From the NCBI GenBank assembly GCA_017399765.1, contig JAFQBH010000035.1:1-47886 (forward strand): a stretch of 47,886 nucleotides of DNA, written 5' to 3'. Shown piece after piece: positions 7,119 through 47,116 of this stretch (position 1 is the stretch's first letter; the number at the start of each line of letters is the position of its first letter). The stretch is from Oscillospiraceae bacterium. GTDB taxonomy: Bacteria; Bacillota; Clostridia; Oscillospirales; Ruminococcaceae. The position numbers were made by a program, and so were the translations under genes. The notes beneath the pieces were generated by a model that was not told the DNA's origin, searched no databases, and saw only the letters and a program-made list of their open reading frames with translations.

Positions 7119-7230
7119 AACAAACCATTTTTTATGCGGAAAAATCTTATGCAGAAATTTGAGCACGGAGAATAATTTTTGCTCTTTGATTTTGATGCTC
7201 AACAGCCCAATTTGCAGAGCAAAACGGTGC

Positions 7231-8118
7231 TCAAAGGATTTCATAGCTTTCAAGAATGTTACGGAGTTTTTCTTTTTTATCAAAATCCATTTCACAAAGA
7301 GGAAGCCGCAGAGGACCGAATCCTTTTCCGAGCATGTTGAGAGCTTCTTTGACGGAAATGGGATTTACGTCCGAAAAAAGCGCATCAACAAGCGGAATAA
7401 GCCCAATTTGTTTTTTTGCGGCTTCAATATATTTCCCTTCAAAATAGATGGAACAAAGTTCATGCATTTCTTTCGGAACAATATTCGCCGCAACTGAAAT
7501 AACGCCTTTTGCGCCGATGCTCAAAAGCGGAAGAGTCAGTTCATCGTTTCCGGAATATACGTCGATTTTATCACCGCAGAGAGAAATAATGCGTTCCGCT
7601 TTTGCAACATTTCCTGAAGCTTCCTTAACAGCGCAGATAAACGGATTTTCGGAAAGTTTTAGATACGTTTCGGGCTTAATGTCAACCCCTGTTCTTGAAG
7701 GAACGTTATAAACAATGGTCGGAAGCTGGCACCATTTTGTAATAAAATTATAATGTTCGACCAGGCCGTTTTCGTTTGCTTTATTATAATACGGTGTAAC
7801 GGAAAGAACGGCGTCCGCACCGGCATTTCTTGCGTTCAGGGCAAGTTTTGCGGCATGGTGGGTGTTGTTGCTTCCGGCACCCGCAATAAGCGGTACACGG
7901 CGTTTTATAACGTCTTTTGCACAGCAGATAATATTATATTGTTCCTCTTCGGAAAGAGTTGCGGATTCTCCGGTGGTTCCGTTGACAATAATTGCATCAA
8001 CGCCATTCTGAATAAGTTCATCAATAAATTCGGCGTATTTTTTCAAATCAACAGTTCCGTCCGGTCGCATTGGCGTAACAGTTGCAACTCCGCAGCCGGT
8101 AAAAATTGTATTTTTCAT
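7231..8118 (-). CDS. dapA: 4-hydroxy-tetrahydrodipicolinate synthase
   Basis: DapA condenses pyruvate with aspartate semialdehyde, the first committed step to diaminopimelate and lysine, and dipicolinate in spore formers also derives from this pathway. The 295 residues show Thr48-Thr49 in NGTTGES, Tyr137 in VYNVPSRTG and the Schiff-base Lys165 in CAVKEASGN. ATG at 8118 follows GGAGG at 9 bases; an upstream in-frame start adds 11 residues without a ribosome site. It lies downstream of asd, whose product supplies its substrate. The GGAGG lies in the 3' arm of a terminator-like hairpin. Confidence 0.97.
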   Translation of the reverse strand: MKNTIFTGCGVATVTPMRPDGTVDLKKYAEFIDELIQNGVDAIIVNGTTGESATLSEEEQYNIICCAKDVIKRRVPLIAGAGSNNTHHAAKLALNARNAGADAVLSVTPYYNKANENGLVEHYNFITKWCQLPTIVYNVPSRTGVDIKPETYLKLSENPFICAVKEASGNVAKAERIISLCGDKIDVYSGNDELTLPLLSIGAKGVISVAANIVPKEMHELCSIYFEGKYIEAAKKQIGLIPLVDALFSDVNPISVKEALNMLGKGFGPLRLPLCEMDFDKKEKLRNILESYEIL

Positions 8119-8121
8119 AAT

Positions 8122-8170
8122 AAAAAACCTCCGCAAATATGGATACACCAATTTATGCGGAGGATTTTTT
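8122..8170 (-). terminator. asd-dapA intergenic hairpin that contains the dapA ribosome site
   Basis: On the minus strand CCTCCGCA (8163-8156) pairs with TGCGGAGG (8135-8128), followed by six T. It is a credible terminator or attenuator for asd, and the GGAGG of dapA is the end of its 3' arm, so folding would also hide that site. Confidence 0.7.
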
Positions 8171-8181
8171 TATTATGATAT

Positions 8182-9261
8182 TCAGTCAAAATAGCCTTTT
8201 GCGGCATAAAGTTCCGCCATAAGAACGTTTCCGCCTGCGGCACCGCGAAGGGTGTTATGAGAAAGACTTACAAATTTATAGTCATATTGGCTGTCGGGAC
8301 GGAGTCTTCCGATAGAAACTCCCATTCCTTTTTCAAGGTTGCGGTCAAGTTTTGCCTGGGGTCTGTCGGGTTCTTCAAAATAGGTGAGGAAATGTTCCGG
8401 AGCGGAAGGAAGATTGAGAAGCTGTGGTTCTCCTTTGTATTCTGCCCAGCATTTTTTAATTTCTTCAACGGAAGGTTTGTTTTCAAAGCTTACGAAAACG
8501 GCGGCGGTATGACCGTCTGAAACAGGAACACGAAGACATTGAGTTGTGATAGCAGGGGAAACGGCGTTGATTATTTCGCCGTTTTCGACTTTTCCCCAGA
8601 TTTTAAGCGGTTCTTTTTCACTTTTTTCTTCTTCGCCGCCTATATACGGAATAAGGTTATCGACCATTTCGGGCCAGCGTTCAAAGTTTTTTCCTGCGCC
8701 GGAAATTGCCTGATAGGTGCAGGCAAGAACTTTGGTGATGCCAAATTTCATAAGAGGATGGAGCGCGGGAACATAACTTTGGATAGAGCAGTTGGATTTT
8801 GCGGAAATGAATCCGCGTTTTGTTCCAAGACGTTTTTTCTGCGCTGCAACGGCTTCGATATGTTCCGGGTTGATTTCCGGAATTATCATCGGAACATCGG
8901 AAACTCCGCGGTTTGCGCTGTTGTTGGACATTACCGGACATTCAAGCTTCGCATATTTTTCTTCAAGGGCCTTTGTTGCGGCTTTATCCATATTTACAGC
9001 GCAGAAAACAAAATCCACAACAGAAGTGATTCCTTCCGCATCTTTTTCCGCATCGAGAACGACCATTTCCCTTACGTTTTCGGGAATTTCGGTTTCCATT
9101 GCCCAACGGCCGGAAACGGCATTTTCATAGGTCTTTCCGGCGCTTTTTCCAGAAGCGGCAAGAACTTCGATATGGAACCACGGGTGGTTCGAAAGCAGCG
9201 TTACAAGGCGCTGGCCAACCATTCCTGTGGCGCCTATTACGCCTACTTTATAATTTTTCAT
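8182..9261 (-). CDS. asd: Aspartate-semialdehyde dehydrogenase
   Basis: Asd reduces aspartyl phosphate to aspartate semialdehyde with NADPH, feeding lysine, threonine and methionine synthesis. The Rossmann motif GATGMVGQ is at 10-17, the catalytic cysteine is Cys158 in SNCSIQ, and a conserved histidine lies in SDGHTAAVF. At 359 residues, with the NCSIQ context, it resembles the archaeal/fungal-like class more than the E. coli class; this class call is from memory. ATG 9261 follows AAGGAGG; an upstream in-frame start 38 codons earlier lies in the promoter and is rejected. It is the first gene of an asd-dapA unit. Confidence 0.96.
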   Translation of the reverse strand: MKNYKVGVIGATGMVGQRLVTLLSNHPWFHIEVLAASGKSAGKTYENAVSGRWAMETEIPENVREMVVLDAEKDAEGITSVVDFVFCAVNMDKAATKALEEKYAKLECPVMSNNSANRGVSDVPMIIPEINPEHIEAVAAQKKRLGTKRGFISAKSNCSIQSYVPALHPLMKFGITKVLACTYQAISGAGKNFERWPEMVDNLIPYIGGEEEKSEKEPLKIWGKVENGEIINAVSPAITTQCLRVPVSDGHTAAVFVSFENKPSVEEIKKCWAEYKGEPQLLNLPSAPEHFLTYFEEPDRPQAKLDRNLEKGMGVSIGRLRPDSQYDYKFVSLSHNTLRGAAGGNVLMAELYAAKGYFD

Positions 9262-9346
9262 GAACGGGGCCTCCTTAAAAAATAATTTGCTTGCAATAAA
9301 AGCGTTGTTGCAATATAATATATAAGTTATATTGAATATGTTTCTG

Positions 9347-9375
9347 ATTTTATCATTACATAATTTTTCTGTCAA
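9347..9375 (-). promoter_or_regulatory. Promoter of asd-dapA
   Basis: On the minus strand TTGACA (9375-9370) and TAAAAT (9352-9347) are 17 bases apart, a near-consensus sigma-A promoter about 85 bases upstream of asd. The short leader shows no lysine-riboswitch fold that I can recognise. Confidence 0.8.
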
Positions 9376-9409
9376 TATTTTTGTAAAATTTTAGATAAAC
9401 GGTGATTTG

Positions 9410-10435: not shown

Positions 10436-10441
10436 TTAAAC

Positions 10442-10472
10442 AAAAAAGCGACCGCGTTGCGGTCGCTTTTTT
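10442..10472 (+). terminator. Intrinsic terminator after queA
   Basis: A 14-bp stem starting AAAAAAGCGACCGC (10442-10455) with a GTT loop and its complement ending in six T. The symmetric A/T flanks may let it also end the minus-strand rubredoxin transcript. Confidence 0.92.
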
Positions 10473-10524
10473 AGCTTGGATTATTAATTTCCGAGATATT
10501 TTCTAACAGCTTGTTTTTTAATTT

Positions 10525-10698
10525 TTATCCCTGAACGTCCTGTGCGACGTTTCTGAATTTTTCTTTGGGCATTTTGCAAAGCGGGCAGCGGAAATCTGCG
10601 GGAAGATCTTCGAATTTGGTTCCGGGAGCAATTCCTTTTTCGGGAATGCCTTTTTCTTCGTCATAGGTGTAGCCACAAATCATGCAGGTATATTTCAT
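10525..10698 (-). CDS. Rubredoxin
   Basis: A 57-residue protein beginning MKYTCMICGYTYDEEKG and containing CPLC. Cys5, Cys8, Cys38 and Cys41 form the Fe(SCys)4 site, and the GYTYDEEKG and DLPADFRCP segments are standard rubredoxin. The usual Gly after the last Cys is replaced by Lys. It is a one-electron carrier in anaerobes, often serving rubrerythrin or superoxide reductase, but no such partner is in the window. An AAGGAGAT site precedes the ATG. With its neighbour on the same strand it interrupts the plus-strand queA-tgt pair. Confidence 0.95.
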   Translation of the reverse strand: MKYTCMICGYTYDEEKGIPEKGIAPGTKFEDLPADFRCPLCKMPKEKFRNVAQDVQG

Positions 10699-10729
10699 AA
10701 GATTATCTCCTTTTCATTTTAATTATTTT

Positions 10730-10812: not shown

Positions 10813-11181
10813 TTAATCTTTTTTAAGATTTTTATAGTTTTCAAGTTCTTCGGCGGTCATGTGATCTTCGAGCACACCGAATATGATTTTTCTGTCGCGG
10901 GCATTCGCTCTTCCGAAAGCGCTGAGCATAAGAGATTCTTCCGTGCTCAAGGTTTTTATAGGGGCAGGGAAGCCGCTTATTCCCATTAAGTAATCTAACG
11001 AAACATCAAGAGCTTCTGCGATTTCGGCGGCAATATCTGCCTGGGGTTTTCTGCTGTTGTTTACATAGCGGGAAAGGGTTGCCTCGGTTGCTCCTATTTT
11101 TTGAGCAAGCCAGCTTTGGGTTATTCCGCGTTGTTTCATTATTTTCTTAACTTTTCTTCCAAAATCTTTGATTTCAGCCAT
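10813..11181 (-). CDS. XRE-family transcriptional regulator
   Basis: A 122-residue protein with an N-terminal helix-turn-helix of the Cro/CI type (about residues 8-62: GITQSWLAQKIGATEATLSRYVN), with the family's LDVSLDYLMG end. The C-terminal 60 residues (TEESLMLSAFGRANARDRKII) look like a short dimerisation region. ATG 11181 has GGAGAT six bases upstream; a start 10 codons earlier lacks one. It probably regulates itself or the adjacent rubredoxin, but no target is shown by sequence alone. It is the upstream member of a two-gene minus-strand insertion between queA and tgt. Confidence 0.88.
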   Translation of the reverse strand: MAEIKDFGRKVKKIMKQRGITQSWLAQKIGATEATLSRYVNNSRKPQADIAAEIAEALDVSLDYLMGISGFPAPIKTLSTEESLMLSAFGRANARDRKIIFGVLEDHMTAEELENYKNLKKD

Positions 11182-16832: not shown

Positions 16833-17582
16833 TTATTCTTCTTCGCAAAGCGGCAAAATTCCGCCGATATCACGCAAAGTTCTTCCTCCAAGATTTTCCG
16901 AATAAATATTTCTGTTACGAAGAAAATCTTTTATATTGTCATAATCCTTGAGCGATTTTAAGTTTCCGGAAGTTCCGAGGATTTTTTCTTCAACCATTCC
17001 CCCGCAGCCGCCTATAAATCCGGTATCGTAACCTTTGAGGTAAATTCCGCCTTCCTTTATTTTAAGAACTTCAATTTCCTTTTGCTGTAAAATTCTGGCA
17101 ATTCCCGGATCAGCTGTTATAACGGCATCTTCGGCAACGGCAAGAACCGAACATTTTGCATAGCCTTGTTTTACTCCGATTATGTTATAATTATTTTCTT
17201 CTGCAAACTCCAGCAGTTTTTTATCAATTATATCCGGATTTACAATGATGTTTCTGCCTATGATTTCTGCATTTATAAGACAATCGTCCGGATAACTGAA
17301 ATCAAGTTCATTTTCGGTATTTTTTATATCAAAACCGAGCATCTGAAGCATATATGTGCTCTTTTTTGAGCACGAAGCTGTGAGCACGGAATTTCCGCCA
17401 AGATGAAGAATCTGTAAATCGGCGTGAGATGCAATTCCGGTCGGAAGATTTTCATTAGGTTCAACAGAAACAACGGCTATTTTTGCAGATTGCAATGCAG
17501 AAATAACGTCTTCCGCTTCGGAAGAAACAGCCGCAACGGTTACGTTTCCGTCTGGAAAATTCGGATTCTTAACAAAATTCAT
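16833..17582 (-). CDS. Uncharacterised pentein (GME)-fold protein, DUF6873-like
   Basis: A 249-residue cytoplasmic protein that I do not recognise by function. It has repeated beta-rich units with HADLQILHLGG (about residue 55), FSYPDDCLINAEIIG, ITADPGIARILQ and YDTGFIGGCGGM, a pattern like the guanidino-modifying-enzyme/pentein fold and the clostridial DUF6873 family (family name from memory). Two cysteines, one in GGCGG, could be catalytic. Its start overlaps the radA stop by 4 bases (ATGA), so the two are translationally coupled. Two TGAGCACG words and one GTGCTC lie within 35 bases at 17356-17388. Confidence 0.55.
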   Translation of the reverse strand: MNFVKNPNFPDGNVTVAAVSSEAEDVISALQSAKIAVVSVEPNENLPTGIASHADLQILHLGGNSVLTASCSKKSTYMLQMLGFDIKNTENELDFSYPDDCLINAEIIGRNIIVNPDIIDKKLLEFAEENNYNIIGVKQGYAKCSVLAVAEDAVITADPGIARILQQKEIEVLKIKEGGIYLKGYDTGFIGGCGGMVEEKILGTSGNLKSLKDYDNIKDFLRNRNIYSENLGGRTLRDIGGILPLCEEE

Positions 17583-23996: not shown

Positions 23997-24590
23997 TTAT
24001 TCAAGCGCTATTTTTTTATAGGAAACCGGTTTTAATTCATCGTCAAAATCGATTCTGTAGCCTTCGGAAGGCTTTGGCTGCCATGCATAAAAATGCTCGG
24101 CAGTTTCATCACCCGGGAACCATGTGAGCATCAAGCCGGCAATAACGCCGCCGTGGCAAACGATAATGCAGTCCTTACCGATGTAATCTTCCATTGCGGC
24201 GAGAGAACGCTCCAGCATTATTTCGCCGCTTTCGCCGTTTGGGCAAACGTTTCGCCAGTTATCCCCGGTTATCCAAGCCTGATAGTCTTCCCTGTCTTTA
24301 AGCTGTTCATAGCTTTTCATTTCAAAATCGCCGAAACTGAATTCCCTCATTCTTGGGTCGGTTTCGTGGGGAACTTCCCTTCCGTACATTTCAAAAAGGG
24401 TCTGTTCTGTGCGTTTCAAATCAGTTGTAATTACTTCAAAACCGCTTAAATCCGGATAAATTCCTGCTTTCCTGCGGGTTTTAATAGCTTCGATTCCCTC
24501 TTCGATTAAAGGAATATCGCTGCTTCCGTAATAAAGTCTGCGCTTGTTGCCTTCGGTAATTCCGTGGCGGAAAAGATATATGGTGCTCAT
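23997..24590 (-). CDS. cobC: Histidine phosphatase family protein, probably alpha-ribazole phosphatase
   Basis: A 197-residue phosphoglycerate-mutase-like enzyme with the phosphohistidine motif LFRHGITEGN, an Arg in TTDLKRTEQT, the acid REFSFGDFE and the second His in VCHGGV. Position at the end of a cobT-cobU-cobS cluster suggests CobC, which dephosphorylates alpha-ribazole phosphate in nucleotide-loop assembly. Family membership is sure; the substrate is inferred from context only. The ATGAGCACC start is one of the TGAGCAC words. Confidence 0.78.
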   Translation of the reverse strand: MSTIYLFRHGITEGNKRRLYYGSSDIPLIEEGIEAIKTRRKAGIYPDLSGFEVITTDLKRTEQTLFEMYGREVPHETDPRMREFSFGDFEMKSYEQLKDREDYQAWITGDNWRNVCPNGESGEIMLERSLAAMEDYIGKDCIIVCHGGVIAGLMLTWFPGDETAEHFYAWQPKPSEGYRIDFDDELKPVSYKKIALE

Positions 24591-24591
24591 T

Positions 24592-24969
24592 TTATTTCAA
24601 CCTCTGGGAAAGTCCGCAAAAAATTCTTGTAACGTGCTCGGCTTCTTTGGAAAGTTTTATGAGAAGCCTTCCGTTTGCTTCGCGCCAGGCTCTTTCGGTT
24701 TTATCGATAGGAACAACTCCGCAGGAAATATCGTCGGAAATTATGATTTTATCTTCAATATTTTTTGCGTGCTCAAAGAAATAATCAGCCGGTTCAAAAC
24801 CATGCTCAACACACCAGAAACTGAAGCGTTCGATATGGGTTATACATTTTTTATCAAATTCCGGAGCGGAATCTTTACCGCAAACAAAGATTTCTTCATC
24901 GGATATTCCAAAATTTTCTTTTGCAAAAGCGGTTTTACCCTGAAAAGCGCCGCCGATTATAAGTTCCAT
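24592..24969 (-). CDS. Short CobU-like P-loop protein
   Basis: A 125-residue relative of CobU (usually about 180). It keeps the P-loop GGAFQGKT (6-13) and the CobU C-terminal half: ISDDISCGVVPIDKTERAWREANGRL (84-87 is the GVVP loop) and a terminal IFCGLSQRLK. It lacks the middle region that holds the RHxxR segment and the guanylylated histidine. So it could be a kinase-only or GTP-binding partner. It lies between cobS and the phosphatase, with one base before the next start. Confidence 0.75.
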   Translation of the reverse strand: MELIIGGAFQGKTAFAKENFGISDEEIFVCGKDSAPEFDKKCITHIERFSFWCVEHGFEPADYFFEHAKNIEDKIIISDDISCGVVPIDKTERAWREANGRLLIKLSKEAEHVTRIFCGLSQRLK

Positions 24970-27489: not shown

Positions 27490-27525
27490 AAAACAAAGGC
27501 GTGCTCAAATGAGCACGCCTTTTTG
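27490..27525 (-). terminator. tyrS terminator built from an inverted pair of TGAGCACG
   Basis: CGTGCTCA (27500-27507) and TGAGCACG (27510-27517) form the heart of a 13-bp stem (27495-27507 with 27510-27522), with GCC/GGC and A/T flanks. On the minus strand it ends in CCTTTG then seven T, a good terminator for tyrS. Confidence 0.9.
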
Positions 27526-29087: not shown

Positions 29088-30746
29088 TTATTTTGAAAGC
29101 TCCAAAAGTTCTTCGGCGCTCTTTTTAAGGGCATCGGTAAGGTTTCCGCCCATGATTCTTGCAAGTTCGTTAACCCTGCCCTCTTTTTCAAGACTTTCAA
29201 CGGAAGTGAAAGTTCTTCCGCCTTCGGTACTTTTTGAAATAAGAAGGTGGTTGTCTGCATATGCAGCAACCTGGGCAAGGTGAGTTACGCAGATTATCTG
29301 GCGGCCTTTTGAAACCTGTTTAAGTTTCTGACCGACTTTTTGCGCGGCAGAACCGGAAATACCGGTATCGACTTCGTCGAAAATAAGGGTATCAACATTA
29401 TCATTATCCGCAAGAACGTTCTTTATGCTGAGCATAATTCTTGAAAGTTCGCCGCCGGAAGCAATTTTTGTAAGGGGTTTAAGCGGTTCGCCTGCATTTG
29501 TTGCGATATAAAATTCAAGATTATCTTTTCCGGATTCGGTAAAATCCGTTTCCTCAAAATTAACTTTGAAGCGAACATTCGGCATATTAAGATAGGAAAG
29601 TTCTTCGGAAACAGCCCTTTCAAAAGCCTCAGCGGCTTCAGAACGTTTTTTGGTCAGAGCACCGGCAAGTTTTGCGGTTTCGGAAAAAAGCTGTTCACGC
29701 TCTTTTTTAAGCTTTTCAAGACGCTCTTCGGAAAATTCAATATTTTCGAGTTCCAAAACAGCTTTGTTATAATATTTAAACATTTCCTCAACGCTGCCGC
29801 CGTATTTCCGTTTAAGGCGGAAAATCTGATCAAGTCTATGTTCAGTTCTGTTCTGGAGAGCGGGATCAAAATCAAGTTCGTCCGCGTTATCTTTTACATC
29901 ATTTGCAAATTCCTCAAATTCATAATACATTTCCTTGAATTTTTCGGAAAGACCTTCGTACTGCGGGAAAAATTCAGCAAGTCTTGCGCAATTTTCAATT
30001 GCGGAAGAAAGTCCTTCAAGAGCGCCTTCGTTTTCGCCGTTTCCGTCAAGAGCAGAAACGGTTTCGGAAATAAGCTCCATTATGTTTTCAGCACTCTTTA
30101 TGCGTTTGCTGAGAGCAAGAAGCTCTTCTTCCTCGCCTTCTTCGATTGCGGCTGCTTCGATTTCACCGATCTGAAATTTTAGCATATCGATTCTGGCGGT
30201 TTTGTCGGAATCATCATTAATGATTTTTTTGATTTCGCGTTCGATAGTGCGAAGTTTTTTATAAGATTCACGGTATTCCAAAAGTTCATTTTCGGTATTT
30301 CCGAAGGAATCTATATAACCTATATGAAGATCAGGGTTTTGCAAAACGGCGCTGTCATGTTGACCATGAACGTCAATGAGCACATAAGAAAGTTGTTTGA
30401 GCACGCCGGCTGTCGCAGGACGCATATTTACCTTGCAGACGCTTTTTCCTTCCGTGGAAATTTCCCTGGAAATCATGAGTTCGTCTTCAATATCATATCC
30501 GAGTTCTTCAAGAAGTTTTTCCGCTTCTTTGGAAATATCGGTGAAAACAGCAGAAACAACTGCTTTTCCCTCTCCGGTTCTTACAAGATCACGGCTTGTT
30601 CTTCCGCCAAGAACAGCATTGATTGAATCAATAAGGATGGATTTACCTGCGCCGGTTTCACCTGTGAAAACGTTAAATCCGTTTTCAAAATCTATAGCGG
30701 CACTTTCAATAACCGCAACGTTTTTTATAAAAAGCTGAGAAAGCAT
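29088..30746 (-). CDS. recN: DNA repair protein RecN
   Basis: RecN is an SMC-like ATPase that gathers double-strand breaks. The 552 residues show Walker A GETGAGKSILIDSI near residue 30, a central coiled coil (about 160-370), the ABC signature ASGGELSRIML and Walker B DTLIFDEVDTGISG. It is the last gene of a long minus-strand series, 33 bases after argR, the conserved clostridial order. One TGAGCACG and one TGAGCAC word lie in it. Confidence 0.97.
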   Translation of the reverse strand: MLSQLFIKNVAVIESAAIDFENGFNVFTGETGAGKSILIDSINAVLGGRTSRDLVRTGEGKAVVSAVFTDISKEAEKLLEELGYDIEDELMISREISTEGKSVCKVNMRPATAGVLKQLSYVLIDVHGQHDSAVLQNPDLHIGYIDSFGNTENELLEYRESYKKLRTIEREIKKIINDDSDKTARIDMLKFQIGEIEAAAIEEGEEEELLALSKRIKSAENIMELISETVSALDGNGENEGALEGLSSAIENCARLAEFFPQYEGLSEKFKEMYYEFEEFANDVKDNADELDFDPALQNRTEHRLDQIFRLKRKYGGSVEEMFKYYNKAVLELENIEFSEERLEKLKKEREQLFSETAKLAGALTKKRSEAAEAFERAVSEELSYLNMPNVRFKVNFEETDFTESGKDNLEFYIATNAGEPLKPLTKIASGGELSRIMLSIKNVLADNDNVDTLIFDEVDTGISGSAAQKVGQKLKQVSKGRQIICVTHLAQVAAYADNHLLISKSTEGGRTFTSVESLEKEGRVNELARIMGGNLTDALKKSAEELLELSK

Positions 30747-32954: not shown

Positions 32955-34783
32955 TTCAAAGCCTCCTTAACGGCATTTATCATAGCTTCACGGTCAAGAC
33001 CATGAAGCTTCATTGCATTTTTAACTTCCATATGCGGAACAAATCCAGAGACACAGTGGATTTTGTAATTTCCATCATAACCGGATTTTAAAAGCAAATT
33101 TCCGAAATGTTCGGCAATGCTTCCGTTTTCAACAGATTCTTCGAAGAAGAAAACGTTTTTATATTTTTTTACGATTTCGATCATTTCATGCTCAAGAGGA
33201 AAGATCTTTCCGATTTTGAGCACGGAAGATTCGGTTTCTTCTGCGGCAAAAGATGCTTCGACAAAAAGTCTGCCGTATGCGATAATGATACAATCGTTTT
33301 TGCCTTCAAAAAAATCAAAATCTTCGTAATTTTTAAAGAACTTTTCAGGAATTGTTTTTTCAAAATCCCGAGGATACCTTACAGCCTGAACTCCTTTGGC
33401 AGAAAAAGCATTTTTCATATCTTTTTCGAGTTCTTTGTAATCTGCAGGTGAATAAATTGTAACTCCGGGGATTGTTGTAAGGATCGGAACATCGAAAGTT
33501 CCCTGATGTGTTTCACCGTCACCGCCGACAATTCCGGCACGGTCTATACCCAAAACAACATGTTTCGGTTCGATTGAAGCATCATGAAGAATCTGGTCAT
33601 AAGCGCGCTGAAGAAAAGTTGAATAGACCGAAAAAACCGGTTTCATTCCGCCCGCTGCAAGTCCGGCTGCAAAAGTCATTGCATGTTCTTCAGCAATTCC
33701 GACATCAAAAAAGCGTTCGGGATATTTTTTGGAAAACTCTTTTAAACCGGTTCCGTCGGTCATTGCTGCTGTAATTGCACAGATTTTGTCATCTTTTTCC
33801 GCAAGTTCGCAGAGTATATTGCCGAAAGCGGAAGAAAAAGAATATTTGCTTTCATTCTTCAGCTCACCGCTTTCTTTATAAAAAGGAGCGACACCATGGA
33901 ATTTTGAAGGATTTTTTTCCGCAGGATCATACCCCCTGCCCTTTACTGTATTTATGTGAACAAGAACAGGTTTTTTTATCTGTTTAGCGCGGCGGAAAGT
34001 TCTTATGAGCACGGCAATATCGTGTCCGTCTGCGGGACCCAGATATGTGAAACCAAAATGCTCAAAAGTGTTGCTGGAATAAAAAACATCTTTAAAAAAA
34101 GTTTTTATTGAGCGAAGGATTCCGAAAATACTTTTGCCGATGAAAGGAATTTTAAGCAAAGTATGTTCAAGAGCATCTTTAAAATGAAAATATCCTTCTC
34201 TTGAACGAATGTCTGCAAGATATTTTGCCATAGCTCCGACATTCGGAGAAATGCTCATTTCATTATCGTTGAGTACAACGACAAGGTTAGTCCTGCTTCT
34301 TCCGGCATTGTTCATTGCTTCAAAAATCATTCCGCCGGAACAGGCTCCGTCGCCGACTACCGCAACAACAGACTTTTCACTTCCGGAAATTTTTTTGGCT
34401 TCGGCAATACCCAAAGCGGCGGAAATTGAAGTGCTCGCGTGTCCCGCAACAAAAAGATCGTGTTCGCTTTCTGAAGATTTTGGAAATCCGGAAAGACCGC
34501 CTTCGGTGCGGATTCCTGTTATATCTCTTCCGGTAAGAATTTTGTGAGCATAGCACTGGTGTCCAACGTCCCAAATTATAGGTTCATCAGGAGAATCAAA
34601 AACATAGTGAAGCGCAACGGTGAGTTCAACGGCTCCGAGATTGGAAGCAAGATGTCCGCCGGTTTCGGAAACTTTTTCAATGATTTCATCACGAAGTTCA
34701 TCACAAAGTCCGCAAAGCTGTTCAATATTCAGTTTTTTGATATCGCTTACGCATTTGATTTTGTTAAGAATATCGTGTTCCAT
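32951..34783 (-). CDS. dxs: 1-deoxy-D-xylulose-5-phosphate synthase
   Basis: Dxs makes DXP from pyruvate and glyceraldehyde 3-phosphate, the entry to the MEP isoprenoid pathway. The 610 residues have the thiamine-diphosphate motif GDGACSGGMIFEAMNNAG...LNDNEMSI, the catalytic Glu in DVGIAEEHAMTFAAG, and DRAGIVGGDGETHQG. It follows ispA, which uses the pathway's products. Two TGAGCACG words fall in it, both read as Val-Leu codons. Confidence 0.97.
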   Translation of the reverse strand: MEHDILNKIKCVSDIKKLNIEQLCGLCDELRDEIIEKVSETGGHLASNLGAVELTVALHYVFDSPDEPIIWDVGHQCYAHKILTGRDITGIRTEGGLSGFPKSSESEHDLFVAGHASTSISAALGIAEAKKISGSEKSVVAVVGDGACSGGMIFEAMNNAGRSRTNLVVVLNDNEMSISPNVGAMAKYLADIRSREGYFHFKDALEHTLLKIPFIGKSIFGILRSIKTFFKDVFYSSNTFEHFGFTYLGPADGHDIAVLIRTFRRAKQIKKPVLVHINTVKGRGYDPAEKNPSKFHGVAPFYKESGELKNESKYSFSSAFGNILCELAEKDDKICAITAAMTDGTGLKEFSKKYPERFFDVGIAEEHAMTFAAGLAAGGMKPVFSVYSTFLQRAYDQILHDASIEPKHVVLGIDRAGIVGGDGETHQGTFDVPILTTIPGVTIYSPADYKELEKDMKNAFSAKGVQAVRYPRDFEKTIPEKFFKNYEDFDFFEGKNDCIIIAYGRLFVEASFAAEETESSVLKIGKIFPLEHEMIEIVKKYKNVFFFEESVENGSIAEHFGNLLLKSGYDGNYKIHCVSGFVPHMEVKNAMKLHGLDREAMINAVKEALK

Positions 34784-34796: not shown

Positions 34797-35651
34797 TTAT
34801 TTCATTCTCTTGATAAGAAAATCAAGAAGTTCGTTAAAGTTCGAGGTTTCAAAACCATTTTCGGAAAGTTCCAAAAGATTTTTATTTGCCGAATCGATGT
34901 AAACCATTGCGTCTTTTCTTGCTTTTTCAAGACCGTGAACTTTAACATAGGAATTGAGTTCACAGGTTTCATAATTTCCGTCAAAATCGAGGATATCGTC
35001 GATTATCTGGAAAGCAAAACCAAAGTTTTCGGCATAATTTTCTGCAAGTTCACAAAGTTTTTCATCTGCTCCCGAGGCAAAACATCCCATGAGCACGGCA
35101 GCTTTTATAAGAGCGACGGTTTTTAATTTATGGATAAGACCAAGGGTTTTTCCGTCAACTTCTTTTTCTGCGGCTTCAAGGTCAAGAACCTGTCCGCCGA
35201 CCATTCCGCGGAAACCGGCAAGATCAGAAAGGACATTTATCGCTTTTATAGCTCTTTCGGGGTGATTTTTTGCGGATGAGCTTTTGGAAATTGCACAGAA
35301 AGCATGGGTCAGAAGCGCATCTCCGGCAAGAAGCGCGTTTGCTTCGCCGAAAGCGATATGACAGGAAGGTTTTCCTCTTCTGATATCATCATCATCCATG
35401 CACGGAAGATCATCATGTATAAGCGAGTATGCCTGGATACATTCAACAGCAACGGCATATGGCATTGTTTCATCGAAATCGCATCCGAACATTTTTGCAA
35501 ATTCAAGGGTGAGAATTCCGCGAAGGCGTTTTCCGCCAAGAGCGGAATAACGCATGGCTTCGACTATCAATTTATAATCAGAAGATTCGGAAAAAAGTTC
35601 CGTGCTCATTGCGGAATCTATTAAATTTTTATCATCGATAAGAAAAGACAT
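34797..35651 (-). CDS. ispA: Polyprenyl (farnesyl/geranyl) diphosphate synthase
   Basis: A 284-residue short-chain prenyltransferase with the first Asp-rich motif LIHDDLPCMDDDDIRRG and the second DDILD. The GGKRLRGIL substrate motif is intact. ATG 35651 has GGAGGATATA just upstream; an in-frame start 29 codons earlier runs into xseB and is rejected. The gene lies between xseB and dxs, the usual clostridial arrangement. Product chain length (C10, C15 or C20) cannot be fixed by eye. Confidence 0.95.
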   Translation of the reverse strand: MSFLIDDKNLIDSAMSTELFSESSDYKLIVEAMRYSALGGKRLRGILTLEFAKMFGCDFDETMPYAVAVECIQAYSLIHDDLPCMDDDDIRRGKPSCHIAFGEANALLAGDALLTHAFCAISKSSSAKNHPERAIKAINVLSDLAGFRGMVGGQVLDLEAAEKEVDGKTLGLIHKLKTVALIKAAVLMGCFASGADEKLCELAENYAENFGFAFQIIDDILDFDGNYETCELNSYVKVHGLEKARKDAMVYIDSANKNLLELSENGFETSNFNELLDFLIKRMK

Positions 35652-35853: not shown

Positions 35854-37070
35854 AACGAAGGTCCTCCTTCTTCTTTTTCAGTAACGGTTGCTTTGAGCAC
35901 GCCGTCGAGAAAATGGATTTTTAATGTGTCGCCGGTAAAAACTTCCGAAACAGAAGTAATCTGCTTATTATCTTTTTCAATTCGGCAACCAGATTTTGCA
36001 AGAATTTTTGCGGGATTATTGCAATCAAGTTTTGCAAGAGCAAGAGAAAATCTCGCTTCCTTGTTTAAAAGCAGATTTTTATATAAGAATTCTCTTTTTT
36101 CAGAGATAAAATCGAGCTTGTTTTGGTGTTTTGAAAGAAAATTATCTGTAAAGTTCTTTGACTTAACATTTGTGAATTTTGAGAGCAAATCCGCATATTT
36201 ATCACATTTTCTTTCGATATAATCACGCATCCATTCAATATTATCATCGAATGACTGCCGGAGCGCATTTATATCTGGACTTGAAAGTTCGGCAGCTGCT
36301 GAAGGAGTTGGCGCTCTTAAATCTGAAACAAAATCGCATATTGAAAAATCGGTTTCATGCCCGACTGCCGAAATTACAGGTGTTTTGCAGGCAAAAATTT
36401 CTCTTGCAAGGGTTTCATCGTTAAAAGCGGAAAGGTCTTCGGAACTTCCTCCTCCTCTTCCGATAATTATTACGTCGGGTTTTATAACTTTGTCCTGTTT
36501 AACGAGCGCGGAAATGAGCTGCTTTGGCGAATCTTCACCTTGGACCGAAACCGGAGTGAGCACGATTTTTGCAACGGGCCATCTTCTTGTGAGCACGTTT
36601 GTGATATCCTGAATTGCGGCGCCGCTTCCGGAAGTAATAACGCCGATTTTTTCAGGAAATTGAGGAATGTTTTTTTTATATTTTTCATCAAAAAGGCCTT
36701 CTGCTTCAAGTTTAGCTTTAAGCTGTTCAAAAGCAAGGTGTTTTGCTCCAAGACCTTCCGGCTGGATATCATAAACATAGAGCTGGCATGAGCACGCTTT
36801 TTGATAAACGGAAAGATCACAGCGTACAATAACGGACATTCCGTTTTCAGGCACAAAACGAATTCTTTCGGCATAACTGCGGAACATAACGCAGTTTATT
36901 TCTGCACCTGAATCTTTAAGAGAAAAATAATAGTGTCCGGAATAAAAGTTTGCTTTAAAATCGGTTATTTCACCTTTGATATATATTCCGGAAAGTTTTT
37001 TGTTTTCATCAATATATGATTTCAAATAGGCGGTTATCTGCGTTACGGTCAAAATATTGAATCCTGCCAC
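35850..37070 (-). CDS. xseA: Exodeoxyribonuclease VII large subunit
   Basis: The 406 residues start with an OB-fold domain (ILTVTQITAYLKSYIDEN) and contain the catalytic core with GVITSGSGAAIQDI, IIGRGGGSSEDLSAFNDE and AVGHETDFSICDFVSD, then a coiled coil and C-terminal segment. The start is GTG 37070, seven bases after GGAGG. An ATG at 37094 overlaps the upstream stop but has no ribosome site. Four TGAGCACG words are in this gene, in two codon frames. Confidence 0.95.
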   Translation of the reverse strand: MAGFNILTVTQITAYLKSYIDENKKLSGIYIKGEITDFKANFYSGHYYFSLKDSGAEINCVMFRSYAERIRFVPENGMSVIVRCDLSVYQKACSCQLYVYDIQPEGLGAKHLAFEQLKAKLEAEGLFDEKYKKNIPQFPEKIGVITSGSGAAIQDITNVLTRRWPVAKIVLTPVSVQGEDSPKQLISALVKQDKVIKPDVIIIGRGGGSSEDLSAFNDETLAREIFACKTPVISAVGHETDFSICDFVSDLRAPTPSAAAELSSPDINALRQSFDDNIEWMRDYIERKCDKYADLLSKFTNVKSKNFTDNFLSKHQNKLDFISEKREFLYKNLLLNKEARFSLALAKLDCNNPAKILAKSGCRIEKDNKQITSVSEVFTGDTLKIHFLDGVLKATVTEKEEGGPSF

Positions 37071-37090: not shown

Positions 37091-38020
37091 TCATTTTTCT
37101 GCGGCAATAGAAGCAAGCACAGCTATTCCGGCCGCATTGTCGGAAGAAAACTCCGGCATCGCGAATATTCCGCCGTATTTTTCTTCGATTGTTTTTCGGA
37201 TTATTTTGTTTGACATAACTCCGCCGGCATAGATAAGCGGAAGTTTTCCGTATTCTGCAATCAAAGCATCGGTCATTCCGCAAAGAGCCGCTTCTATTGA
37301 TTTAAGGCAAAATAATGCGATATTTTCCCTTTTTTCACCGGAATCAAGCATTTTTCTGCATTTGTTTTCAATGCCGGAAAGACAGCATTCGTTACCTTTC
37401 ATAGTCGGCTTGATTTTAAAACTTGCAGTGCTCAAAAGAGCAAGTTCTTCAAGATATTTTCCTGCGGGAAAAGGAAGCCCGAGCATTACTCCTACTCGGT
37501 CAACGGCCTGTCCCGCTTTTAAATCGGCGGAACCGGCAACTTTTTCGCATTTTATTATGCGGTTTTCGTCCGGAGTTACCAAAAGCGCTTCGGTTGTTCC
37601 GCCGGAAAGATGGAACGCAATAAATTTTTCATTTATGAGGTCAAGTCTTCCTGCGGAAAAAAGCGCGGCGGCAATATGACCCTGCTGATGAGAAAATTCA
37701 TATCTCGGAGTTTTGAGCACAGAAGAAAGAGTTTTTGTAACCATATCGCCAACGAGGAAACAAGGCATATATGAACCCTCGATATCCCTTGGTCTTGTTG
37801 AAACTCCGATTGCTTCAATTTCATATCTGTTTCCGTCAATAAGGATTTCGACAATTTCTCCAAGCTGTTTTACATGGGCAAAAACCGCATCGGATTGGCG
37901 AAGACCCAATTCTCCTTCTCTTACCGGAAGAAGTTTTTTGCGTTGGATTATTTCATTTTTTTCGGGGTTATAAAGGGCCGCAGAAGTGGTGTAGTTGCTT
38001 GTGTCAATTCCAAGAAACAT
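37091..38020 (-). CDS. Kae1/TsaD-like protein (peptidase M22 family), divergent paralogue
   Basis: A 309-residue ASKHA-fold protein related to TsaD. It keeps the N-terminal GIDTSNYTTSAAL nucleotide loop, the metal-binding pair His111 and His115 in SHQQGHIAAAL, HLSGGTTEAL and the C-terminal YAGGVMSNKII. It differs from canonical TsaD in the region usually reading GPGLxGxL (here STRPRDIEGSYMPC) and is about 30 residues shorter. So it may not be the t6A synthase of this cell; another copy may exist elsewhere. Position between nusB and xseA is common in Clostridia. Start and nusB stop share a base (TAATG). Confidence 0.8.
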   Translation of the reverse strand: MFLGIDTSNYTTSAALYNPEKNEIIQRKKLLPVREGELGLRQSDAVFAHVKQLGEIVEILIDGNRYEIEAIGVSTRPRDIEGSYMPCFLVGDMVTKTLSSVLKTPRYEFSHQQGHIAAALFSAGRLDLINEKFIAFHLSGGTTEALLVTPDENRIIKCEKVAGSADLKAGQAVDRVGVMLGLPFPAGKYLEELALLSTASFKIKPTMKGNECCLSGIENKCRKMLDSGEKRENIALFCLKSIEAALCGMTDALIAEYGKLPLIYAGGVMSNKIIRKTIEEKYGGIFAMPEFSSDNAAGIAVLASIAAEK

Positions 38021-41815: not shown

Positions 41816-42006
41816 AATCCAAAAACCGATTTTACAGTTTCAAAAAGATTGCTTATTTCGCCAATCAACATCATGAGCACGACGATAAGTCCCGCAAGGG
41901 TTGTCATCATAGCTTGTTCTTCCCTTCCGGAACGTATGAGCACCTGGTTGAGCACGGAAACTATAATTCCAATCGCTGCAATTTTAAAAATCATATCTAC
42001 TTCCAT
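41812..42006 (-). CDS. spoIIIAC: Stage III sporulation protein AC
   Basis: A 64-residue, two-helix membrane protein (about 5-25 and 34-53). IFKIAAIGIIVSVLNQVLI and the loop RSGREEQAMM are typical. Three TGAGCAC words, two of them full TGAGCACG, occur in this 195-base gene, the highest density in the window. Confidence 0.95.
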   Translation of the reverse strand: MEVDMIFKIAAIGIIVSVLNQVLIRSGREEQAMMTTLAGLIVVLMMLIGEISNLFETVKSVFGL

Positions 42007-42021: not shown

Positions 42022-42507
42022 TCAAATAAAAATAATTGCCGCAAACATTCCGGCAAGAACACCTGAATATCTTAATAATTTGATTTTTTGTAAAAAGGGA
42101 GCTTCAATTTTTTGATAATATGTATTTATTTTATTTCTGCAAAAATTAATTTCTCTGATTTGTTCTGCAGCAGAATATTTTCCCAATACAAAAAACACTT
42201 CTTCAAGAATTGAATTGACTGTTCTGTCTTTGCAAAAATTTGTAATATATGCAACTTCAGATATGTTTTTAAAGTTTTCAGGAATTACAGAACTCAAAAA
42301 ATTTTTTGTTTTGTCATCACATGAATTTTCGGTAAAATCAAAAATTTCATTTATTGTCATATTTTCACTTTCAATTCCCAAAAGAATATTTTTAATAAAT
42401 GAATCCACTCTTTTAACGTCTTTAAGTAAAGAAACATAATTTTCAGAAACAAGAAATCCAAAGGAAGATACAGAAAAAAACAAGAGAATAATTCCGAGAA
42501 TTTTCAT
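42022..42507 (-). CDS. spoIIIAB: Stage III sporulation protein AB
   Basis: A 161-residue protein with an N-terminal helix (1-20), a helical cytoplasmic-facing middle (FIKNILLGIESENMTINEIF) and a C-terminal helix (about 143-161). The fold resembles GspF-like inner-membrane proteins of secretion systems, as known for SpoIIIAB. It overlaps spoIIIAA by 4 bases. Confidence 0.9.
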   Translation of the reverse strand: MKILGIILLFFSVSSFGFLVSENYVSLLKDVKRVDSFIKNILLGIESENMTINEIFDFTENSCDDKTKNFLSSVIPENFKNISEVAYITNFCKDRTVNSILEEVFFVLGKYSAAEQIREINFCRNKINTYYQKIEAPFLQKIKLLRYSGVLAGMFAAIIFI

Positions 42508-43370
42508 ATTGCAAGCTCCTTTGCAGTGACAATTTTATATATTTCATGTTTTTTGTTTATGAAAACAAAATTATTAAATATGCTATATTTTATGATCTCT
42601 TGGGTAAGCGGCTTTGTGACAAAGTCTTTTTCATTCAAAGCGTGCATGCTTGCGACAATTTCAGTTCCGCTTTTCATTGCGAATAACGCCGAAGATATGT
42701 CTTTTTCATCGCCGAATTCATCGCATATGATTATATCCGGAGCCATTGACCGAACGGCTATTTTAATTCCGTCTTTTTTAATGAATCCGTTTAATATAAC
42801 GCTTGACCCAATGTCAAAAGAAGGAATTCCGCGAAAGGTTCCTGCAATTTCCATACGCTCGTCCACAATGCAAACACGTTTTTTTAAACTTGCGTATTTT
42901 GAATAATCTCTTAAAAGAGTTGTTTTTCCGGAACACGGAGGTCCTATTATAAGAAAACTGCAGTTTGGATATTCCCAAAGTTTTTTTGAACAACCGTTTA
43001 TCTCATGCGGAATTCTTATATTCAAAGCAGAAATGTCTTTTATTCCTATTATTTTTTCATTTTCATAGACAGCTGTTCCGCAAATGCCTGTTCTAATTCC
43101 TCCTTCAGAAGTGACAAAACCTTCACATATTTCGTTTCTAAAGGCATGTACAGAAAATTCACATAAAGAAGCAAAAATGTTTTGAATTTCCTGCAGGGAA
43201 ACGCAACCTGTTTTTATTTCAAAAATTTTGTTGTCAGTAACGATAAACGGTTTTTTATTTACTGTTACTCTGATTTCACAAATTTTATTTAAATCTATTC
43301 CACTCGACAAAACGCCTCCAGAAATATTTTTTCCAAGGCATTTAAAAAGCTTTTCAAAACAATTTTGCAA
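42504..43370 (-). CDS. spoIIIAA: Stage III sporulation protein AA (ATPase)
   Basis: A 288-residue secretion-type ATPase with Walker A GPPCSGKTTLLRD and Walker B PDIIICDEFGDEKD. RNEICEGFVTSEGGIRTGICG and HALNEKDFVTKPL are family features. It powers the SpoIIIA complex in the mother cell. The start is TTG with AAGGTGA upstream. It heads the eight-gene operon spoIIIAA-AH. Confidence 0.95.
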   Translation of the reverse strand: MQNCFEKLFKCLGKNISGGVLSSGIDLNKICEIRVTVNKKPFIVTDNKIFEIKTGCVSLQEIQNIFASLCEFSVHAFRNEICEGFVTSEGGIRTGICGTAVYENEKIIGIKDISALNIRIPHEINGCSKKLWEYPNCSFLIIGPPCSGKTTLLRDYSKYASLKKRVCIVDERMEIAGTFRGIPSFDIGSSVILNGFIKKDGIKIAVRSMAPDIIICDEFGDEKDISSALFAMKSGTEIVASMHALNEKDFVTKPLTQEIIKYSIFNNFVFINKKHEIYKIVTAKELAI

Positions 43371-43455: not shown

Positions 43456-43467
43456 TTGAGGATTTAT

Positions 43468-45471
<2,004 letters not shown>

Positions 45472-45511
45472 TTATAAAAATATTATATCACTTTTTAGGT
45501 TATAAATAAAT

Positions 45512-45541
45512 AAAAAAGGCACGGAAAACCGTGCCTTTCGG
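45512..45541 (-). terminator. Terminator after the isochorismatase-family gene
   Basis: AAAGGCACGG (45515-45524) pairs with CCGTGCCTTT (45529-45538), followed by T-run on the minus strand. Confidence 0.92.
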
Positions 45542-45549
45542 TAAATATT

Positions 45550-46080
45550 TTATCTGTTGATAACGGTGAACTGCATGCTTTCAAGAACGTCGAGAGCTTT
45601 ATCGTTAAGAGTTTTGTCGTTGCTTCCGACACAGAGAGCATCAATTATGATTTCGGCTTCCGGCTGAGCAGTTTTAAGCAAAACAGCATTTGCCATAACG
45701 CAGATATTGGTAACAACGCCGCAGATTTCAATTTCATCATAGTTATAATCTTTGTGAAGAACAAGCATCGCAAGATCAAAGCTTCCAAAAGTGTGTTTTC
45801 CAATGGTCATTGCATCTTTGCAAACTTCACCGGTTTTTCCGTAAAGTTTCCAGCCTTCGGTGCCGTTCTGGCAATGAACGACCGGAAGTTTTTTTCCTTC
45901 CTGCATTTCAAGGTATGCAGGACCGTGGGTATCCATGGTATAGATTATATCGTGACCTTCGGCTCTGTAAGCTTCAACTTTTGCGGCAATACGCTCGTCA
46001 AGAAGTTCAGCGCCTTCAAAACCAAGGCTTCCGGAAACAAAATCGTTCTGATAGTCAACAACAACAAGAAGTTTTTTCAT
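45550..46080 (-). CDS. Cysteine hydrolase of the isochorismatase/nicotinamidase family
   Basis: A 176-residue enzyme with the family's catalytic triad: Asp9 in VVVDYQNDFV, Lys95 in TIGKHTFGS and Cys127 in GVVTNICVMA. The DTHG motif near residue 50 is a metal/substrate landmark of nicotinamidases. Nicotinamidase is possible, but its usual metal-binding His pair is not evident, so a general amidohydrolase is as likely. It follows an asparaginase gene on the same strand. Confidence 0.88.
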   Translation of the reverse strand: MKKLLVVVDYQNDFVSGSLGFEGAELLDERIAAKVEAYRAEGHDIIYTMDTHGPAYLEMQEGKKLPVVHCQNGTEGWKLYGKTGEVCKDAMTIGKHTFGSFDLAMLVLHKDYNYDEIEICGVVTNICVMANAVLLKTAQPEAEIIIDALCVGSNDKTLNDKALDVLESMQFTVINR

Positions 46081-46108
46081 AACAGTTCTCCTTTTTTATA
46101 TAAAAGTT

Positions 46109-47116
46109 TTATTCATCAAGTTCGCCGCAAAGGTCTTTTTCCATAAGCTCTTCAATTTTGTCTTTTGGGTAACCGCAGCTCAGGAGATAATAAAGCTTTG
46201 CAACGGCGGCTTCGGTGGTCATATTTTTTCCGCTTACTGCACCGGCTTTTTTAAGCGGACTGCTTGCGGCATAATGCCCAAGACTAACGGTTCCTGTCGG
46301 ACATTGGGAGCAAACAACAACAATGTTTCCGTGCTCATAGGCTTTTTTGATAATGCCGCTGAGTTCGGTGCAATAATTAGGAACGTTTCCGGCTCCGAAA
46401 GTTTCAAGGACAACGCCACGGAGTTTTTGGGTTATAATAGGTTCAAAAAGATCAATTCGAATTCCGGGAAAAATTTTGATTACGCCGATAGGTTCTTCAA
46501 CAAATTCCTGCATTTCAAAAGGTGCTTCGCTCTTTTTCATCAAAACATTATCGCGGTAACGGATTCCGATTCCGGCGTCCGCAAGTTTCGGATAATTAGG
46601 CGAATCAAAAGCGATAAGGCTGTCCGCAGACATTTTTATTGCCCTGTTTCCGCGAAGAAGCTTTCCGGCAAAGAAAATGCAGACTTCGAAAACTTTTCCG
46701 GAAGCGGCGATCATCATTGAAGCAAGAATGTTATCTTTTCCGTCGCTTCGGATTTCGCAAAGAGGAATCTGGGAACCGGTTATAATTACCGGTTTGGGAA
46801 GATTGCGGAGAATAAAGGAAAGTGCGGAAGCGGTGTATGCCATTGTATCTGTTCCGTGAAGAACAACAAAACCGTCATATTTATCCATATTATCGCGGAT
46901 TGTTCTTCCGATAAGGTTCCATTCGCTTACAGTGATGTCAGAAGAATCCAGAAGAGGAGAAAATTCGATTACATCATATTCCGGAAGTTCAGGCGAAGAA
47001 AAATCGCTTATTCTTGCCATTATATTTGAAAAAGGTTCTTTTCCGGGTTCATAACCGTTTTCACCGCGTTCCATACCAATGGTTCCGCCGGTATATATAA
47101 TACAAATGCGCTTCAT
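46109..47116 (-). CDS. ansA: Type I L-asparaginase
   Basis: A 335-residue asparaginase with both catalytic threonine motifs: YTGGTIGME near residue 10 and VLHGTDTMAYTASAL near residue 90. GSQIPLCEIRSDGKDN, AFGAGN-like ETFGAGNVPN and a short C-terminal domain fit the cytoplasmic type I group. The start ATG 47116 has CGGAGGA just upstream; an in-frame reading beginning 40 codons earlier overlaps the acetyltransferase gene and is rejected. Its product ammonia/aspartate could feed the lysine and other aspartate-family genes, but no operon link exists. Confidence 0.92.
   Translation of the reverse strand: MKRICIIYTGGTIGMERGENGYEPGKEPFSNIMARISDFSSPELPEYDVIEFSPLLDSSDITVSEWNLIGRTIRDNMDKYDGFVVLHGTDTMAYTASALSFILRNLPKPVIITGSQIPLCEIRSDGKDNILASMMIAASGKVFEVCIFFAGKLLRGNRAIKMSADSLIAFDSPNYPKLADAGIGIRYRDNVLMKKSEAPFEMQEFVEEPIGVIKIFPGIRIDLFEPIITQKLRGVVLETFGAGNVPNYCTELSGIIKKAYEHGNIVVVCSQCPTGTVSLGHYAASSPLKKAGAVSGKNMTTEAAVAKLYYLLSCGYPKDKIEELMEKDLCGELDE

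Follow-up and report, generated by a model that had tools for sequence, protein, structure and literature searches.

A genus-specific DNA word under selection forms clustered, helically phased arrays in an Oscillospiraceae lineage

Results and Discussion

The word in the window and in its genome

The window analyzed in this study was a stretch of 47,886 nucleotides (contig JAFQBH010000035.1, positions 1 to 47,886) of the draft genome of an Oscillospiraceae gut bacterium (GCA_017399765.1, hereafter G000), and its subject was a short DNA word, TGAGCAC, together with the octamer TGAGCACG/CGTGCTCA to which most of its copies in the window extend. The main result was that these sites were clustered and helically phased, a property absent from the original prediction, which had been made from the sequence of the window and had reported the abundance of the word. 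The window held 25 copies of the 7-mer, against 2.57 expected from dinucleotide shuffles, and 19 copies of the octamer, against 0.65 expected; none of 100 shuffles reached either count. Our recount reproduced the predicted 25 and 19 copies exactly, as well as the six octamers that extend to TGAGCACGGAA, the 14 of 19 octamers in one orientation (the + strand) and the use of all three codon frames with Val-Leu the commonest (among the 7-mers inside genes, 13 Val-Leu, 2 xx-Cys-Ser, 4 Ser-Thr and 2 Glu-His). The predicted positions were correct except for one copy, which starts at 35601 rather than 35602. The G+C content, assumed earlier to be about 42%, measures 39.9%, and the over-representation claimed from 4-5 and about 1 expected copies was real and had been understated. 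Wholly inside called genes lay 21 of the 25 7-mers, the other 4 being not wholly in a gene; genes were called with our own hexamer-based finder rather than a standard annotator. The sites in the window were arranged as follows.

7160..7233, unstranded: array of two strong sites and one weak site; the strong pair is convergent, in the gap between convergent genes, and its second member overlaps the end of the next gene by 3 bases
10869..10949, unstranded: array of three sites, one strong (TGAGCACG on the - strand at 10942), in an HTH_3 regulator gene
17367..17388, + strand: pair of strong sites in a DUF6873 gene, 14 bp apart and mutually out of phase (coherence 0.51)
24583..24808, unstranded: array of four sites, two strong, over the end of a histidine phosphatase gene and a CobU-like gene
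27500..27517, unstranded: divergent pair (- and +) with starts 9 bp apart that makes up the stem of a hairpin resembling an intrinsic terminator, downstream of the tyrosyl-tRNA synthetase gene on the - strand
30377..30405, + strand: pair of strong sites in recN, separated by 21 bp (two turns); each is conserved in 11 of the 14 species aligned
33188..33224, unstranded: strong site at 33217 and one weak site in dxs
34006..34551, unstranded: array of five sites, one strong (34006), in dxs; coherence 0.61
35090..35097, + strand: single strong site in a polyprenyl synthetase gene
35601..35608, - strand: single strong site in the polyprenyl synthetase gene, conserved in 10 of the 15 species aligned
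35894..35901, + strand: strong site near the 3' end of the exonuclease VII large subunit gene
36557..36796, + strand: array of three strong sites (36557, 36590, 36789) with a coherence of 0.94, in the gene for the exonuclease VII large subunit
37428..37720, unstranded: two separate 7-mer sites (37428 on -, 37714 on +) in a TsaD-like gene
41874..41956, + strand: array of three strong sites (41874, 41937, 41949) in the 64-codon spoIIIAC gene
46330..46337, - strand: single strong site in an asparaginase gene

The name recN rests on an SMC_N/RecF/RecN match together with position. Among the spoIIIAC orthologues sampled, 10 of 11 carried two or three sites and one carried none. The hairpin at 27500-27517 has the stem GGCGTGCTCA/TGAGCACGCC, followed by TTTTT, and is T-rich past the stem on both strands; elsewhere too, inverted pairs form terminator-like hairpins, termination being predicted from sequence.

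The whole draft genome of G000 (1.83 Mb in 44 unordered contigs, 88% complete) contained 415 copies of TGAGCACG, 224 on one strand and 191 on the other, or about one per 4.4 kb, and the octamer read backwards had no copy in it. The 14:5 orientation bias of the window went with the favored Val-Leu frame in a mostly minus-strand region, genome-wide orientation being 224:191. Across 502 kb of G000, 209 sites were distributed as 167 genic, 37 intergenic and 5 at gene edges; the genes flanking the intergenic sites were convergent in 20 cases, co-oriented in 11 and divergent in 3, the other 3 sites being at the ends of stretches. A site was present in 8 of 59 convergent gaps (15-600 bp), compared with 11 of 277 other gaps.

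Selection on the word at the DNA level

Sampling of G000 covered the window and loci L081-L100 and L141-L146. In the genes, 82 octamers were found compared with 4.7 after synonymous-codon shuffling, the intergenic DNA held 22 octamers in 70 kb, and every stop-free reading frame was used by sites of the sample. All eight species tested (G000 and seven others) exceeded the codon-shuffled expectation, including the most divergent species of the genus, G011, at 60% G+C (55 against 10.5).

Conservation was determined in 18 orthologous genes from up to 14 species, G011 excluded. Read as Val-Leu (frame 0), GTGCTCA was kept in 582 of 993 comparisons, compared with 4/130 for GTGCTTA, 16/241 for GTTCTTA, 32/124 for GTACTTA and 0.20-0.29, by frame, for the average 7-mer; TGAGCAC was kept in 828 of 1508 comparisons with all frames pooled. 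Where the amino acid was unchanged, codons were retained more often in the motif than elsewhere (GTG 0.78 vs 0.24, GAG 0.83 vs 0.34, CTC 0.72 vs 0.37), while CAC retention hardly differed (0.62 in the motif, 0.59 outside). In this genus, selection acts on the word at the level of DNA. The checks that the original prediction had named (genome count, Markov and codon-shuffled expectation, strand bias and conservation in relatives) were run, and the enrichment survived them; the codon shuffles and the conservation of sites strongly support its proposal of a DNA-level signal rather than a codon-pair effect.

Clustering and helical phasing of the sites

Site pairs 7-30 bp apart in G000 were about 16 times as frequent as expected, compared with 1.6 times at 0.5-1 kb and 0.6-0.9 times beyond. 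With weak sites included, 522 kb of G000 contained 124 arrays of 1 to 10 sites, 43 of them single. The phasing period in G000 was 10.53 bp (block bootstrap 95% interval 10.51-10.55), and pairs 131-500 bp apart still had a mean cosine of 0.53 at the best period (n = 95). Phasing was found in direct genic pairs of G000 (R 0.69, n = 38) and in opposite-orientation genic pairs (R 0.53, n = 50). With orthologues collapsed because the species share ancestry, it was found in direct pairs in different frames (R 0.60, n = 21), in direct pairs between genes (R 0.52, n = 19) and in convergent genic pairs (R 0.53, n = 32). Direct, convergent and divergent pairs fit one model (159 pairs), whose period is 10.55 and whose center lies at position 4.75 of TGAGCAC. 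Phase coherence reached about 400 bp, with a fitted decay of 333-560 bp that varied with the assumed period. Decay lengths near this are what the thermal twisting of DNA would permit, and limited array size would also make coherence decay.

Because pairs drawn from one array depend on each other, we preferred shuffles, the block bootstrap and per-family counts to Rayleigh values. The value observed in G000 (0.55, 172 pairs) was reached by none of 1000 codon-lattice shuffles, nor was that of six further species (mean cosine 0.51, 199 pairs; dxs-region loci of those species excluded). For 16 later-fetched loci from six other species, with parameters fixed beforehand, the value was 0.62 (118 pairs), again reached by 0 of 1000 shuffles, and all 20 later-fetched loci, with period and center fixed, gave a mean cosine of 0.54 (161 pairs; single species 0.23 to 0.86). 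Collapsing orthologues across 14 species left 423 pairs (12-400 bp) with a mean cosine of 0.53. The 47 gene families absent from the G000 sample gave 0.51 (151 pairs, 12 species), or by distance 0.59 at 12-130 bp, 0.53 at 131-250 bp and 0.35 at 251-400 bp. The mean cosine was positive in 106 of 124 gene families.

Pairs less than 12 bp apart were excluded from the fits. G011 was excluded from the conservation, weak-site, decay, AA/TT and orthology-collapsed counts and included in the binned distance table, and the dxs-region loci of 13 relatives were excluded from the weak-site, decay and AA/TT analyses and kept in the clustering, period and strand-polarity counts. Orthologous arrays were uncollapsed in the clustering, period, polarity, later-fetched-loci and lattice-shuffle counts, in which several later loci surround the same genes.

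Thirteen control words with at least 8 pairs (two of them one word and its complement) had R values of 0.05-0.39 (p at least 0.14), and two further control words had too few pairs. Alpha-helix periodicity was rejected as the cause of the phasing: Val-Leu dipeptides had an R of 0.06 (n = 401), and different-frame pairs kept their phase. Scores were higher for two dipeptide controls, Glu-His at R 0.43 (n = 28) and, at R 0.27 (n = 61), Val-Leu with K/N/S/T/I/M/R as the next residue, probably from motif copies left in that control. Ranked by phase among 7-mers in small samples, the word came 8th in G011 and between 1st and 3rd in four samples from G000 and G006, and among the top five of the G000 and G006 lists, only words overlapping TGAGCAC recurred. 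Candidate phased partner words were weak. The background autocorrelation of AAA/TTT, with values of 9.15 bp over 30-130 bp and 10.70 bp over 100-300 bp, was not used.

Outside the window, an array of four strong sites (coherence 0.93) lies inside the comEC gene (L087, 9407-11548), which adjoins a gene that by eye is holA-like. A separate word in the G000 sample, the palindrome TTCCGGAA with its relatives (TTCCGCCG), had 536 genic copies against 139 after codon shuffling, both strands counted, and 22 intergenic copies. The 7-mer TTCCGGA, contained in TTCCGGAA, was unphased, and the excess of this palindrome is probably a codon-context effect.

Sequence preferences of the site and the surrounding bending signal

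The 94 octamers in 428.6 kb of G000 extend to the consensus TTTGAGCAC[G>C]G. In the same DNA, TGAGCACC was enriched 12-fold; other single changes that stood out were CGAGCACG (4.2-fold), TGAGCATG (4.7-fold) and TGAGCACA (4.6-fold), followed by the lesser enrichment of TGAGGACG (3.4-fold) and TGACCACG (2.9-fold), and most remaining variants were near background. At 8-200 bp from strong sites, TGAGCAT formed 166 pairs against 47 expected (cosine 0.45), CGAGCAC 72 against 18 (0.53) and TGAGCAG 53 against 19 (0.60). In the same test, no variant altered inside GAGCA both clustered and phased like a weak site. TGAGCAT, CGAGCAC and TGAGCAG thus behave as weak sites that share the phase of the strong ones.

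With motif-like words masked, AA/TT steps around genic sites (n = 506) lay half a turn from the site center (z score -8.5), and GC-type steps lay in phase with it (z 4.9). Around Val-Leu anchors lacking a nearby motif, the AA/TT effect had the same sign and was ninefold smaller (z -2.2). In the rotational positioning of nucleosomes, AA/TT and GC-rich steps recur every ten bp and are offset from each other by half a turn. The sites described here share these features, whereas their signal is anchored on a sequence-specific site and occurs in a bacterium. By this analogy, the pattern suggests that the DNA would be bent towards whatever reads the major groove at GAGCA.

Distribution among related genomes

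A survey of 100 genomes was carried out. All 15 genomes of the genus, G000 included, held 207-695 copies of TGAGCACG, compared with 0-18 copies of the controls; 46 genomes from other genera of the same family held 4-232 copies and 39 further genomes of the same order 7-194. The genomes of the genus are all drafts, 73-98% complete. Since the reversed word is an imperfect control for composition, five sister genera were also sampled against codon-shuffled genes, and they showed no clear enrichment in genes (observed vs codon-shuffled 0 vs 1.75, 0 vs 0.15, 6 vs 3.45, 2 vs 1.3 and 3 vs 2.6). Nor did 72-80 kb from each of these genera yield a "dialect" word comparably strong in both genes and gaps; the candidate TTTCCACC of G034 was rejected, with 24 genic copies against 2.8 expected yet a single intergenic copy.

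The nearest named relative in the public genome set was an Oscillospiraceae metagenome-assembled genome from sheep rectum (L001), with a Dxs 81% identical. At 60-63% G+C, compared with about 38-46% in the other loci, G011 has a strong match to a pilus ATPase and retains the enriched word, but its sites cluster little and are not significantly phased.

In the accessible parts of the literature, mostly outside subscription journals (including PMC6370729 and PMC12616744), we recognized no report of the word as a genome-wide signal. Nor, within those parts, did we recognize a report of helically phased genome-wide arrays.

A putative multivalent DNA-binding protein

Our findings indicate that selection acts on the face of the duplex that a site presents relative to its neighbors, in either orientation and over hundreds of bp. 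The favored explanation, to which we give a probability of roughly one half, is that TGAGCAC[G>C], embedded in the longer context TTTGAGCAC[G/C]G, would be the high-affinity site of a putative sequence-specific double-stranded DNA-binding protein, which may, less certainly, have a role in chromosome organization. This role was proposed because the sites are mostly genic and at terminators, occur on both strands and, among those between genes, lie between divergent genes in only 3 of 37 cases. The putative protein, or a rigid assembly of it, would approach the helix from one side and touch multiple sites simultaneously; it would read GAGCA in the major groove, and the DNA would bend or wrap towards it. 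In the chromosome-organizing role, it may be a sequence-specific, chromatin-like nucleoid protein that would work as SeqA does on phased GATC pairs.

A more tentative extension is a bacterial "rotational code," in which several hundred same-face arrays in core genes, with AA/TT and GC steps bending the DNA alike, would allow a protein assembly to wrap or lay the chromosome in a fixed rotational register. Phase coherence would then fade over a few hundred bp, roughly where thermal twisting blurs the register.

Several results weigh against the favored explanation or narrow its reach. Intergenic sites (n = 143) lacked the AA/TT signal (z -0.4), and conservation was lower in some frames (GTGCTCA in frame 1, 30/98; TGAGCAC in frame 2, 58/151). 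With orthologues collapsed, divergent genic pairs were phased weakly (R 0.39, n = 20) and convergent intergenic pairs without significance (R 0.34, n = 22). Phasing was not significant in G011 (0.20, 19 pairs, reached by 104 of 1000 shuffles), and in small single samples a few other words had a comparable or higher phasing score (TCGGCAA in one G000 sample, CCGGTTC in G006, GGCAGCA in G034). The spacing of arrays along the genome was no more even than random (coefficient of variation 0.94 vs 0.95), with short gaps in excess. This computational analysis names no cognate protein, and the data fit a nucleoid role and other multivalent DNA-binding roles alike. We ranked the nucleoid-organizing role first and uptake or self-recognition second.

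Alternative explanations

Under the second-ranked explanation, which we regard as unlikely, the word would be an uptake or self-recognition signal for natural transformation, and its arrays would hold linear DNA flat on several membrane receptors before ComEC imports a strand. An uptake-type signal was among the possibilities raised by the original prediction, and part of the evidence agrees with it: the word is abundant, genus-restricted and on both strands, its inverted pairs lie in terminator-like hairpins, as in Neisseria and Pasteurellaceae, and its sites favor convergent gaps (8/59 vs 11/277). ComEC was found in 15 of 15 genomes of the genus and a ComEA-type helix-hairpin-helix match in 12 of 15, 3 of them over the curated cut-off; the six ComEA-type matches inspected by eye all have a hydrophobic N-terminal stretch. 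Same-face arrays would suit surface capture, and the period of 10.53 bp is that of relaxed DNA.

The suggestion fared worse on the transport machinery, as a pilus or pseudopilus ATPase was not found in 12 of the 15 draft genomes among the candidates scored (at most 26 per genome). Matches to the T2SSE ATPase were strong in G010 and G011 and a fragment in G009, and elsewhere were SpoIIIAA-like and other weak matches. A bending signal would be unexpected for flat capture. Three contigs with a type IV secretion coupling gene and neighboring genes in common (L481, L482 and L483, from G013, G004 and G005) also count against uptake, since they carry the word at chromosomal density (24 sites, 20 of them full octamers; 0.48 per kb vs 0.43 in the G000 sample); phasing on these conjugative contigs was borderline (0.44, 15 pairs, reached by 14 of 1000 shuffles). 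In viral contigs, array pairs numbered at least 120 for the motif and at least 120 for the reversed control, and a search aimed at the phage portal family PF04860 alone gave no match in the 15 genomes of the genus.

The weak T2SSE match of G000 itself lies in the window at 42504-43370, in the same minus-strand gene run as spoIIIAC, and we take this gene, from position, to be a putative spoIIIAA-type ATPase of a spoIIIA operon. With spoIIIA-type genes there, the G000 lineage may sporulate.

In the available parts of PMC1852404, the DNA uptake sequences (DUS) of Neisseriaceae and the uptake signal sequences (USS) of Pasteurellaceae are described, like this word, as short, asymmetric, clade-specific and present in hundreds to thousands of copies on both strands, in genes and as inverted pairs in terminators; uptake sequences are known from that source as inverted pairs in terminators. 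Unlike DUS and USS, this word occurs in another phylum, in which a pilus ATPase was not found in most members, and forms clustered, helically phased arrays with weak sites, phasing being not described for DUS or USS in the available parts of these sources (PMC1852404, PMC7811141). As far as the accessible text of PMC7811141 goes, paired USS within 100 bp do not raise uptake in H. influenzae, a point against the uptake explanation, although an effect of multiple copies was seen in one of two earlier Neisseria studies.

Somewhat less likely again is a replication-linked or methylation-dependent multivalent protein of the SeqA type, with the word as putative methylation target, in place of a constitutive nucleoid protein. 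In vitro, SeqA requires paired GATC sites on the same face, integral turns apart, to bind efficiently (PMC5145175, in the part available), and GATC clusters inside E. coli genes are described in the part available of PMC493266. As far as these two partial sources go, one-face sites, integral helical turns and clusters in coding sequence are common to both systems (PMC5145175, PMC493266). Spacing by integral helical turns, as in the SeqA-like mode of binding, was found for the sites of the word, though not in G011. SeqA would by analogy be the nearest working model for same-face binding. Unlike GATC, the word is asymmetric, longer, coherent over hundreds of bp and genus-specifically selected, and at oriC itself the GATC sites lack this integral-turn phasing (PMC5145175, same part).

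Operators of an ordinary transcription regulator, which a short, protein-site-like word with graded variants might resemble, are very improbable, as the word occurs in hundreds of copies whose location is not that of promoters (167 of 209 sites genic, and 20 of 37 intergenic sites between convergent genes).

The Chi site of AddAB, a type of signal also named in the original prediction, was disfavored further and is scarcely credible. Chi sites of AddAB and RecBCD are octamers, genome-enriched at about one per 4-5 kb, and are read as a polar sequence on unwound DNA. Like Chi, this word is an enriched octamer at such a density (about one per 4.4 kb), and AddB matches, all below the curated cut-off and over most of the profile, were present in 14 of 15 genomes of the genus. 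Unlike Chi, it is clustered and phased on duplex DNA in all orientations, and the like phasing of direct, convergent and divergent pairs would be unexpected for a word read on unwound DNA. No clear polarity was seen in G000, where 50 sites lay with and 67 against the majority gene strand and 29 with and 31 against GC skew, both being proxies on unordered contigs. Site orientation in the other 13 species was 75 vs 183 by gene strand and 53 vs 79 by skew (intergenic 12 vs 7); this one-sidedness accompanies the Val-Leu reading, and loci of the dxs region that occur repeatedly inflate it. The AddB best match itself started at profile position 28-36 in 13 of 14 genomes of the genus, compared with 1-6 in 18 of 24 other matching genomes, and the AddB N-terminus may be divergent in the genus, judging from these alignments.

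That the word is a by-product of codon usage, base composition or amphipathic protein helices, as its commonest reading, Val-Leu, might hint, has next to no probability: a codon-pair or composition origin is contradicted by the codon-shuffled null, the intergenic copies, the 60% G+C species and conservation at synonymous positions, and the phase holds across different frames while Val-Leu dipeptides as such are unphased.

Implications

If the nucleoid-organizing role or the rotational code is true, the protein-coding genes of this genus would bear a second message at the level of the DNA, with the helical pitch setting its register; selection would act on it at synonymous sites, and the sequence by itself would suffice to read it. 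Such a message would represent a bacterial counterpart to the rotational positioning of chromatin or, under the uptake explanation, a new self-recognition signal in a Gram-positive lineage. The helical phasing of over-represented words also provides a test that could be applied to other genomes, where it should separate signals read on the duplex from those read on a single strand.

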